A program made the position numbers and the translations under genes. Below are positions 2,361 to 17,177 of a stretch of 33,415 nucleotides of DNA, one piece after another (positions within the stretch are counted from its first letter, which is position 1; every line of letters starts with the position of its first letter). The notes under the pieces are model-generated. The model saw only the letters and a program-made list of their open reading frames with translations. It ran no database searches and was not told where the DNA came from. This DNA is from a virus: the IMG/VR virus record IMGVR_UViG_3300030419_001268, positions 1 through 33,415 of that record, one strand, 5' to 3'.

Positions 2361-2790
2361 AGAAGACAAGATAGCAAACAGTTTAGACCTTACACCTATA
2401 GTAGATGAGCCTAAACAAGTAACTGCTGTTATAGAAAAACCTTCAAAAGAAGGTTCTCAATCGGAACGAGATTTAGAATACTCGAGAGAAAATTTATATC
2501 ATTTAATTGAAAGAGGTAGAGATGCTTTGGAAGGTATACTTGATTTAGCAGATCAAAGTCAATCACCAAGAGCTTATGAAGTAGCTGGTCAAATAATTAA
2601 AACAATGACAGATACAAATAGAGACTTGGTTGATTTACAAAAGAAAGCAAAAGATTTATTTGATGATAAGATAGAACCTCATACAGTTAATAATAATTTA
2701 TTTGTAGGAAACACAGCAGAGCTAACTAAAATAATAGGTGGTGATGCAAGAAACGTATTAAAGGGAAAGGCAAATGGATCCGGTAAATAG
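2341..2790 (+). CDS. gp16: Small terminase subunit gp16
   Basis: Small terminase subunit, which recognises DNA and stimulates the gp17 packaging motor. From the GTG start it encodes 149 residues, close to T4 gp16 (164). The central part, about residues 35–105, is predicted as two long helices with the segments RENLYHLIERGRDALEGIL and SPRAYEVAGQIIKTM, typical of the coiled-coil oligomerisation core of T4-type small terminases. The sequence upstream of residue 35 is polar and probably disordered. It overlaps gp15 by 20 bases and the following membrane-protein gene by 17. It is separated from gp17 by two non-T4 genes. Confidence 0.87.
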   Translation: MPTRQPKEDKIANSLDLTPIVDEPKQVTAVIEKPSKEGSQSERDLEYSRENLYHLIERGRDALEGILDLADQSQSPRAYEVAGQIIKTMTDTNRDLVDLQKKAKDLFDDKIEPHTVNNNLFVGNTAELTKIIGGDARNVLKGKANGSGK

Positions 2791-3208
2791 TGCTTCACTA
2801 GAACTTACAGAATACTTAGTGCCATGGATAGCACTATTAATATCACTTGTTGTTACAATGTGGATAAAAGATTGGGTGACAGCATTTGTCAAAGGAATGC
2901 AGTTTAGAAGAAACCCAGCATTCCAAGAAGGTGATCATGTTATATTGGATGGCACACCATCAGTAATAGTTAAAATAGGAATACAAGAAACTGTATTTGG
3001 TGTATATTCTGATGCTGGGTATACATGGAGATATGTTCCTAATGTAAGAATACCTTTTCTAAAATTAGAAAAAATAGTTAATCCTGAATTGCATCTTGAT
3101 TCACCTAGAGAGAAAGCTCAGAAGATACAAGAGCTAATTGATGCAGGTCAAGATGATAGAATTAGTAAAAATAAAGATGCAATAGAACAACTGAAGAATG
3201 GAAAATAA
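2774..3208 (+). CDS. Small membrane protein with MscS-like beta domain
   Basis: The 144-residue product has one hydrophobic segment (about residues 13–31). A stretch at about 42–93 resembles the junction of TM3 and the beta domain of MscS mechanosensitive channels: a basic FRR, then FQEGDHVILDG, a beta-rich part, and a YVPNVRI ending that parallels the VIPNGKI of MscS. The C-terminus (110–144) is a charged helix. The MscS first two helices and the full TM3 Gly/Ala pattern are absent, so it would be a minimal channel-like or membrane-anchored oligomer. It starts 17 bases inside gp16 with GGGAAAGG just upstream. Function is unknown; the MscS link is my own pattern match, not a search result. 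Confidence 0.55.
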   Translation: MDPVNSASLELTEYLVPWIALLISLVVTMWIKDWVTAFVKGMQFRRNPAFQEGDHVILDGTPSVIVKIGIQETVFGVYSDAGYTWRYVPNVRIPFLKLEKIVNPELHLDSPREKAQKIQELIDAGQDDRISKNKDAIEQLKNGK

Positions 3209-3635
3209 TATGTTTGAATATAATTATAAATTAGTAAAGGTAGTTGATGGTGACACGATTGATGTTGACATTGACTTGGGGTTTGGTGTATGGTTACAGA
3301 ATCAAAGAATTAGAATGTATGGTATTGATACACCAGAATCAAGAACAAGAGATGACGAAGAAAAGAAATTTGGTTTACTAGCTAAAGATAAATTACAAAC
3401 ACTTTTAGCTAATGGTAAAGCACTTAAAACATATAAAGATGCAAAAGGTAAGTTTGGTAGAATATTGGCTGATGTTATTGTTTATCATAGTGAAGAAGAT
3501 AGATGGTGTGGAGCTACTGAAATAATGATTGCGGAAGGTTATGGAGTTAAGTATAGTGGTCAAAGCAAAGAAGACATCAAAGAAGAACATCTAGCCAACA
3601 GAGAGAAATTAAAGGCTAAGGGTATTGTTAACTAA
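3198..3635 (+). CDS. Thermonuclease-like (SNase) nuclease
   Basis: Staphylococcal-nuclease-fold, calcium-dependent phosphodiesterase cleaving DNA or RNA. The 145 residues correspond to one SNase domain without a signal peptide, so it acts in the cytoplasm. Catalytic features are kept: VDGDT at 16–20 (metal-binding Asp19), R39 in RMYGIDTPE with Glu47 eight residues later exactly as in SNase (Arg35/Glu43), and KFGR at 85–88 supplying the second arginine. A second in-frame ATG at 3210 is a possible alternative start. It overlaps the upstream membrane gene by 11 bases and gp17 by 11. Co-transcription with the terminase suggests a role late in infection; the target is unknown. Confidence 0.85.
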   Translation: MENNMFEYNYKLVKVVDGDTIDVDIDLGFGVWLQNQRIRMYGIDTPESRTRDDEEKKFGLLAKDKLQTLLANGKALKTYKDAKGKFGRILADVIVYHSEEDRWCGATEIMIAEGYGVKYSGQSKEDIKEEHLANREKLKAKGIVN

Positions 3636-5283
3636 AAACGATATATATCTTGGTAACCCAAGATTAAAAAAAGCTAATGTAAAATTAGATTACACTGAAG
3701 AGCAAATTAAAGAACTTGCTAAGTGTGCTAAAGACATACGCTATTTCTGTAACACATATATGAAAATAGTTAATGTTGATGAAGGTCTGATGAACTTTCA
3801 AACATATAGCTTCCAAGATAACATAATAAATAGCGTACAAAAGAATCGTTTTACTATATGTAAGATGCCTAGACAGTCTGGTAAGACTACTGTTATGACT
3901 GCTCTTATATTACACTTTGCATTATTCAACGAAGCATTCAATGTTGCTGTTCTTGCTAATAAGGCTGCAACTGCTAGAGAGATATTACATAGAATACAAT
4001 TAGGTTTTGAGTATCTACCATATTGGATGCAGCAAGGTATTGTAGAATGGAACAAAGGTAACATAGAATTAGAGAACGGTTCTAAAATATTAGCTGGTTC
4101 AACATCATCAGGTTCTGTTCGTGGTGGATCATTTAACTTAATATACTTAGATGAGTTTGCATTCGTACCTGCTCACCAACAAGAAGAATTCTTTGCATCA
4201 ACTTATCCTACTATTTCATCTGGTGCTACTACAAGAGTTATGATTACTTCTACACCTAGAGGTATGAATCTTTTCTATAAGATATGGACAGATGCAATTG
4301 AAGAAAGAAATGAATACGAAGCTATTGAAGTTCATTGGTCTGATGTTCCAGGTAGAGATGAAGAGTGGAAGAAACAAACTATCAAGAATACTAGTGAGGA
4401 TCAATTCAGAGTTGAGTTTGAATGTGAGTTCTTAGGTTCATCTAATACACTTATACATCCTACTAAGCTAGGAGCATTAGTATTTCACGAACCAATACAT
4501 AAAGCTGAGAGTGTAAAAATATTTGAAGAACCTAAACCTAACCATGTATACACAATAAGTGTTGATGTGTCAAGAGGTATAGGTAATGACTATTCTGCAT
4601 TTACAGTAGTTGATTGTAGTGTTGTACCATATCAAGTAGTAGCAACATTTAGAAATAATGTTATAAGTCCTATGTTATTTCCCAATATCATTCTCGAAGC
4701 TGCAAGAAAATATAATAATGCTTTCTGTCTTGTGGAAATTAATGATATAGGACAACAAGTAGCAGACATATTACATCACGATCTTGAGTATGAAAATATA
4801 ATGACAGCTCAGTGGAGAGGTAGATCAGGACAAATAGTTAATGCTGGTTTTGGTGGAGGCACACAGCAGTTAGGTGTAAGAACTACAAAACAATTGAAAA
4901 GAGTAGGTTGTGCTACATTAAAAACTATTATTGAGAATGATAAGTTAGAAATAAATGATTTTGATATACTACAAGAGCTAACAGCATTTTCAGTTAAAGG
5001 TAACAGTTATCAAGCTGAAGAAGGATATAATGATGACCTAGTAATGTGTTTAGTATTGTTTGCTTGGTTATCTAACCAAGAATATTTCAAAGAGTTAACA
5101 GATATTGATATACGTAAACGCTTACATGCATCAAATGAAAAAGCACTAGAAGAAGATACATTACCATTTGGGTTTGTGGATGATGGACAAAACCCTATAA
5201 AAGATAAAGATGAATTTATGCATGGCGATACTTTGATCACACATTCTGAATGGGAAGAGGATAATACTCACGGGTTATTTTAA
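3625..5283 (+). CDS. gp17: Large terminase subunit gp17
   Basis: Packaging ATPase and headful nuclease. The N-terminal ATPase has an unusual Walker A, RQSGKTT, at residues 83–89, Walker B LIYLDE at 172–177 with catalytic Glu177, and a TSTP coupling motif at 208–211. The RNase H-like nuclease domain shows Asp314 (SVDVSRG), Glu371 (EINDIG) and Asp470/471 (YNDD). The 57-residue Asp–Glu spacing is identical to T4 Asp401/Glu458. Length is 552 residues against 610 in T4. The start is TTG at 3625, overlapping the nuclease gene stop, with AAAGG 9 bases upstream. It is the last gene before a late promoter. Confidence 0.97.
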   Translation: MLTKNDIYLGNPRLKKANVKLDYTEEQIKELAKCAKDIRYFCNTYMKIVNVDEGLMNFQTYSFQDNIINSVQKNRFTICKMPRQSGKTTVMTALILHFALFNEAFNVAVLANKAATAREILHRIQLGFEYLPYWMQQGIVEWNKGNIELENGSKILAGSTSSGSVRGGSFNLIYLDEFAFVPAHQQEEFFASTYPTISSGATTRVMITSTPRGMNLFYKIWTDAIEERNEYEAIEVHWSDVPGRDEEWKKQTIKNTSEDQFRVEFECEFLGSSNTLIHPTKLGALVFHEPIHKAESVKIFEEPKPNHVYTISVDVSRGIGNDYSAFTVVDCSVVPYQVVATFRNNVISPMLFPNIILEAARKYNNAFCLVEINDIGQQVADILHHDLEYENIMTAQWRGRSGQIVNAGFGGGTQQLGVRTTKQLKRVGCATLKTIIENDKLEINDFDILQELTAFSVKGNSYQAEEGYNDDLVMCLVLFAWLSNQEYFKELTDIDIRKRLHASNEKALEEDTLPFGFVDDGQNPIKDKDEFMHGDTLITHSEWEEDNTHGLF

Positions 5284-17024: not shown

Positions 17025-17177
17025 ATGACTGATTGGTGGTTATATATTTTAGGTATAATTGGTTTTGCAGGATGGATTTATATAATAATAAAAGGTGGTG
17101 GTGTACCTACTATATGGTCTGTCTATCAACCAGGTGAGATTAAATGGCCGAAGTGGAAGAGAAAACAGAAAAAGTAG
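17025..17177 (+). CDS. Short single-pass membrane protein
   Basis: A 50-residue frame: ATG at 17025, stop TAG at 17175–17177. It begins MTDWWLYILGIIGFAGWIYI, an almost continuous hydrophobic helix of about 20 residues, continues with a Gly-rich turn (KGGGVPTIW), and ends in a strongly basic tail (WPKWKRKQKK). This is the layout of a small inner-membrane protein with a cytoplasmic positive tail. AAGGA lies about 10 bases upstream. It starts 3 bases after the previous stop and overlaps the next gene by 34 bases, leaving no gap in the operon. Function unknown. Confidence 0.6.
   Translation: MTDWWLYILGIIGFAGWIYIIIKGGGVPTIWSVYQPGEIKWPKWKRKQKK

Follow-up and report, generated by a model that had tools for sequence, protein, structure and literature searches.

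What is a gene for a small membrane protein doing among the DNA-packaging genes of a marine phage? The stretch analysed here (the window), 33,415 bases recorded from an uncultivated marine virus of bacteria, carries T4-type packaging and tail genes, and the gene in question, which we call mini-MscS, is part of a tightly packed run of four:

2290-2790, + strand: terS ORF, gp16-type small terminase (PF11053 E 4e-11, phrog_445 E 3.9e-41; extent taken from the ORF)
2774-3208, + strand: mini-MscS gene, ATG start, 144 amino acids, one transmembrane (TM) segment (basis: ORF, homologues, dN/dS, MscS profile match)
3198-3635, + strand: SNase-type nuclease gene (PF00565 E 3.1e-12, phrog_452)
3625-5283, + strand: terL gene, gp17-type large terminase (PF03237 E 1.4e-32)

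Mini-MscS overlaps terS by 17 bases at its start and the SNase gene by 11 bases at its end. A first-pass annotation had placed it between the terminase genes, which holds in that terS lies upstream and terL downstream, but in this lineage the SNase gene intervenes before terL. Ten homologue pairs give dN/dS values of 0.08-0.26, indicative of purifying selection, and the order terS, mini-MscS, SNase, terL recurs in near relatives; mini-MscS is therefore a real gene. It is present wherever terL identity is 80% or more and the terS-terL gap is readable, whereas at about 60% terL identity the gap is closed or filled by other genes, so that mini-MscS is stable in the window's clade while the site varies among T4-type phage groups. 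Named cyanophages and a Methylophilales phage have other genes or none in this gap. SNase genes also occur near mini-MscS genes outside the terminase context, at +2 in one locus (L049:5831-6334) and about 4 kb upstream in another (L040:720-1163). Elsewhere in the window, positions 17025-17177 hold an unannotated 50-amino-acid ORF with one predicted TM segment (MTDWWLYILGIIGFAGWIYIIIKGGG...).

The relationship of the protein to the mechanosensitive channel MscS is visible through its family. As the sole query, the window protein matches no Pfam or PHROGs model, PF00924 included, and searches of Pfam, PHROGs, NCBIfam and PDB sequences with the protein or its first profile returned nothing useful; the best PDB sequence match, YdhK (4mdw), reached only E 0.075-0.11 and was dismissed as chance. 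The PF00924 search that the first-pass annotation had proposed thus fails for the window protein by itself but succeeds for relatives, two of which exceed the cut-off of 20.2 bits (L050, 41% identical to the window protein, at 31.9 bits; L020, 44% identical, at 23.2 bits), and 5 of 39 non-redundant members match PF00924 at E <=0.01. Using hhalign, we aligned the 39-member family profile with a profile of six MscS proteins, namely E. coli MscS and five PF00924-positive proteins out of three MAGs, and obtained a match over residues 22-99 with a probability of 96.3% and E 1.7e-9. Since the reversed profile and eight column-shuffled profiles all gave E 0.1 or worse, the resemblance is above chance. 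The match is confined to one part of the channel: MscS 93-178 alone gives E 4.4e-11, and both the beta part (E 8.7e-6) and the TM part (E 3.2e-4) of the family match MscS separately, while the family finds no match in MscS 1-88 (TM1-TM2) or MscS 179-286 (the C-terminal domain), nor do residues 103-144 of the window protein match MscS. The family HMM also matches one PF00924-positive bacterial MscS, a MAG gene, at E 1.4e-5. The evidence supports a subfamily of phage proteins in which only the pore helix and beta domain of MscS are left, and we take the homology as shown.

The anatomy of the protein follows from this register. Behind an acidic tail (residues 1-13) the window protein is made up of four parts:

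2813-2866, + strand: TM segment, counterpart of MscS TM3a, residues ~14-31 (hydropathy and charges in 40 members; hhalign register)
2867-2914, + strand: amphipathic helix, counterpart of MscS TM3b, with invariant G41 (=G121), residues 32-47 (alignment A7, hhalign, AlphaFold helix 3-46)
2915-3079, + strand: MscS-type beta domain with the signature TVFG...YxWRYxPN, residues 48-102 (AlphaFold strands, beta-only hhalign, PF00924 in relatives)
3104-3196, + strand: variable C-terminal helix, with no MscS counterpart, residues 111-141 (AlphaFold; no MscS match)

The first-pass annotation had described a single TM segment followed by FRR, FQEGDHVILDG and VPNVRI, in an order mirroring MscS from TM3 through the beta domain. 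All of these are found in the ORF in that order, the motifs at residues 44-46, 50-60 and 88-93, and they lie in register with E. coli MscS (K32=Q112, D33=G113, G41=G121, F50=F130, G53=G133; hhalign). Residues 25 and 29, which align with the MscS seal residues L105 and L109, are mostly hydrophobic across the family. The N-tail carries a net negative charge, and the stretch following the TM segment a net positive one, in 39 of 40 members, from which an N-out, C-in topology is predicted, like that of MscS TM3. Invariant throughout the family are G41, F50, E52, G69, F75, G76, Y83, W85, R86 and N90, and the signature TVFG...YxWRYxPN is the family's own.

An AlphaFold monomer model built from 39 sequences has a mean pLDDT of 91 and places the strands of the beta domain at residues 55-58, 61-68, 72-79, 82-89 and 98-100. 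Its pTM, at 0.59, is modest and its long helix is straight, so the pore geometry is to be read as a prediction. Foldseek searches of the PDB with this model return almost exclusively MscS-type structures (MscS, YnaI, MscK, MSL, TcMscS), the best at E 3.1e-4, with TM-scores by query of 0.42-0.48, and a first, poorer model gave matches of the same kind. What would have spoken against the initial proposal, a protein with no similarity to MscS and a fold without the beta domain, is thus not what the profile match and the model reveal.

Comparison with known systems shows how little of the channel is left. E. coli MscS and YnaI share TM3 and the beta domain with mini-MscS, in register over residues 22-99, but MscS has a TM1-TM2 paddle, YnaI has more TM segments, and both carry a C-terminal alpha/beta cage, all of which are missing here. 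The family therefore belongs to the core of the MscS superfamily while lacking two features of canonical channels: one TM segment takes the place of the paddle, and a C-terminal helix that of the cage with its side portals. The closest parallel in reduction is MscS2 of the microsporidian Nematocida displodere, the most compact MscS known, which likewise consists of a TM3-like helix and a beta domain with neither TM1 nor the alpha/beta cage; it forms heptamers, and its authors could not show tension sensing (PMC11262690). Unlike mini-MscS, it is a eukaryotic parasite gene of bacterial origin with no phage or lysis link and, by its description, has neither the TVFG...YxWRYxPN signature nor the phage helix 111-141 (PMC11262690). 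TcMscS of Trypanosoma cruzi (Foldseek 9bgt) is also a miniature with no TM1 and no cage, a heptamer whose whole pore is formed by TM3 and the beta domain, but it is slightly larger, keeps TM2 and an N helix, and is a proven mechanosensitive channel (PMC12334622). Large eukaryotic viruses, too, are reported to carry MscS-type genes (PMC6163359), and our BFVD matches include such giant-virus proteins. These are virus-borne like mini-MscS, but they serve viruses of eukaryote hosts and have no lysis-gene link, and the protein of Aureococcus anophagefferens virus, for example, has 261 amino acids and three TM segments (PMC6163359).

The family is common among viral contigs. A scan with a diverse alignment confirmed at least 562 relatives, of which 80 were retained, and further scans added more; three extra members lie on MAG contigs among phage-like neighbouring genes. 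One locus (L062) is on contig PBPT01000016.1, 335 kb long and labelled as a Neomarinimicrobiota MAG, where mini-MscS is surrounded by genes typical of a large phage; this contig probably represents phage or prophage DNA that was grouped into a bacterial MAG during binning. None of seven members searched had a significant match among 50,697 phage records (the single hit reached E 0.5), in a collection that may omit records near the window. The same search returned 357 records for a neighbouring two-TM protein, which indicates that the phage-record search works.

To place the gene in its genomic context, we clustered the neighbours of 40 non-redundant members and sorted the contexts by hand. Fifteen members, among them neither the window nor its clade, lie in or beside a lysis module, as judged by the presence of spanins, a PF11351 holin or an endolysin of one of five types. 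The remaining contexts are the terminase site (9), a baseplate-type module (5), the two-TM family only (4) and elsewhere (7). Ten of the 15 lysis-linked members have Rz/Rz1-type spanins, half of these with a clustered GH19 endolysin, and endolysin and Rz/Rz1-type spanins adjoin mini-MscS in four loci (L046, L049, L050 and L062), with lysis-gene families verified on L046, L049 and L062. Four others carry the PF11351 holin directly downstream, overlapping the end of mini-MscS (L061, L278, L234, L293), followed by a phage lysozyme in L234 and a peptidase M15 in L278 and L293. One of the 15 has a SleB-type hydrolase five genes off; this type of hydrolase is seen in L060 and L307. To explain the lysis label on a maximum-likelihood tree, six or more changes on well-supported branches are required, gains and losses pooled, so the lysis linkage is recurrent, with some contexts sharing descent. 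In a raw, redundant count of 225 loci, a lysis enzyme or spanin lies within six genes in 84 and a PF11351-type holin within two genes in 68. Within the 33,415-base window no lysis genes were recognised, and a search of two long contigs that have mini-MscS in the terminase site revealed neither GH19-type (phrog_181) nor GH108 endolysins.

A PF11351 holin or a conserved two-TM protein adjoins mini-MscS in 22 of 40 members, the two-TM family (phrog_10198) lying no more than two genes away in 18 and the holin in 4, and mini-MscS often overlaps or nearly overlaps the gene concerned. The two-TM protein (for example L145:6419-6763, and at 17 other non-redundant loci) has an invariant end GAGAAxFGLY (signature GAGAAWFGLY), and its 357 phage records are mostly Vibrio phages of the KVP40 type. 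We tried it as a PF11351-type holin and found no similarity; recognisable spanins do not lie beside the two-TM gene in KVP40, and on one contig (G004) the gene stands alone inside a tail-type module. For these reasons we call it a candidate membrane partner.

Several loci have further neighbours of their own. Downstream of the two-TM gene, the lysis module is followed by DnaJ-like and ClpA/B-like chaperone genes in an order shared by several diverged contigs (L046, L049, L050 and L062). Directly upstream of mini-MscS on a further viral contig (L201:4401-5953) lie genes for an ammonium transporter (PF00909, E 5.4e-101) and a P-II nitrogen regulator (PF00543), with an o-spanin-type gene farther upstream, and L210 and L215 have similar-sized genes at the place of the transporter and P-II genes. 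A secreted or membrane glycine-zipper protein is encoded directly upstream of mini-MscS in two otherwise different loci, L043:4548-4997 (PF05433, E 1.1e-5) and L051:4405-4854 (similar by eye).

There are several possible explanations for these patterns. We tentatively favour, at somewhat short of even confidence, a late, lysis-linked pore or valve in the inner membrane that tunes lysis timing. The pore-lining TM3 helix and beta domain, oriented N-out and C-in, would assemble into a predicted ring in the host inner membrane. The protein would be made late in infection and, as lysis sets in, serve as a small pore or valve next to the holin, where it may leak ions or relieve turgor; this would tune the membrane potential and hence the moment of holin triggering. 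Homology, conservation and the repeated lysis-gene linkage in relatives speak for this reading. Against it, 25 of the 40 members lie outside a recognised lysis module and the window's clade occupies the terminase site; with sensor paddle and cage both absent, tension gating is also doubtful. The lysis-timing role already raised by the first-pass annotation gains contextual support from relatives but not from the window's own clade, and for the other two roles it raised, osmotic stress and infection exclusion, the analysis tips the balance neither way. Late expression is the norm for terminase, baseplate and lysis modules alike. Oligomer formation, conductance, late timing and the same use in the window's phage, with its terminase context, are what we infer. 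Phage holins, pinholins and PF11351 (GTA_holin_3TM) proteins are likewise small inner-membrane proteins encoded beside endolysin and spanin genes, and by analogy with holins a small-pore role is plausible. The Pfam and PHROGs holin models find no match in the family members tested, and to our knowledge no described holin has the MscS fold. Lysis-linked members usually carry another holin or holin candidate at +1, so mini-MscS need not be the holin itself.

Bacterial MscS is an osmotic safety valve, and the main rival, which we consider possible though unlikely, gives mini-MscS that same protective job: as a tension-gated channel it would prevent premature bursting, under osmolyte build-up or a weakened wall, until virions are ready. 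A fixed terminase site needs no lysis partner under this reading, and TcMscS stays mechanosensitive without TM1 and the cage (PMC12334622). The TM1-TM2 paddle is nevertheless missing, as seen in the lack of a match to MscS 1-88. Hosts, moreover, usually own an MscS, as do three of the three MAGs tested, though bins need not be hosts, and general osmoprotection leaves the repeated lysis linkage unexplained, which a valve used only at lysis would fit.

Another reading is a non-conducting scaffold or antiholin, in which a ring of beta domains would bind the holin or two-TM protein encoded next to it and hold that protein in check in the membrane. The adjacent, often (nearly) overlapping partners (phrog_10198 in 18 of 40, PF11351 holin in 4 of 40) fit this idea, as do the invariant, surface-type Y83, W85 and R86, which MscS does not have. 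The TM3 register and the hydrophobic seal positions are retained, however, as they would be in a pore, and the window's clade has no such partner alongside; we regard this reading as improbable. Less probable still is a component of the virion or ejection apparatus, a tail-carried membrane pore that helps the genome across the inner membrane: the gene does occupy structural regions in the five members with a baseplate-type context and the nine with a terminase one, but the pore of MscS is narrow for duplex DNA, this reading does not account for the spanin, endolysin and holin neighbours, and the Pfam and PHROGs searches yield no tail or baseplate homology. Superinfection exclusion, in which mini-MscS blocks a second phage's entry at the inner membrane, is very improbable, for although small phage membrane proteins often exclude superinfecting phages and one relative has a very weak SieB match (E 0.073, below its cut-off), that match is not significant and the contexts are terminase, baseplate and lysis modules rather than early or defence regions.

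Returning to the late pore or valve, a bolder form of it, which we think rather unlikely, is that the core of a bacterial tension channel has been remodelled by marine phages into a ring for timing lysis; late in infection this ring would sense or release membrane stress and so set off or hold back the holin, a mechanism with no counterpart among described holins or antiholins. In the open-access papers searched, we found none on phage MscS, on lysis by MscS or on MscS-type proteins encoded in the lysis cassettes of phages, and the gene context in relatives, that is the lysis linkage, is what is new here.

If the lysis-linked reading is right, it gives an identity to a common and unnamed family of marine phage proteins and makes membrane mechanics a possible factor in lysis timing, by which burst size and marine carbon release are shaped. 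As one of the smallest MscS cores, mini-MscS could serve to test which parts of MscS are required for conducting or for sensing tension, and it offers a bacterial-virus parallel to the unexplained microsporidian MscS2.
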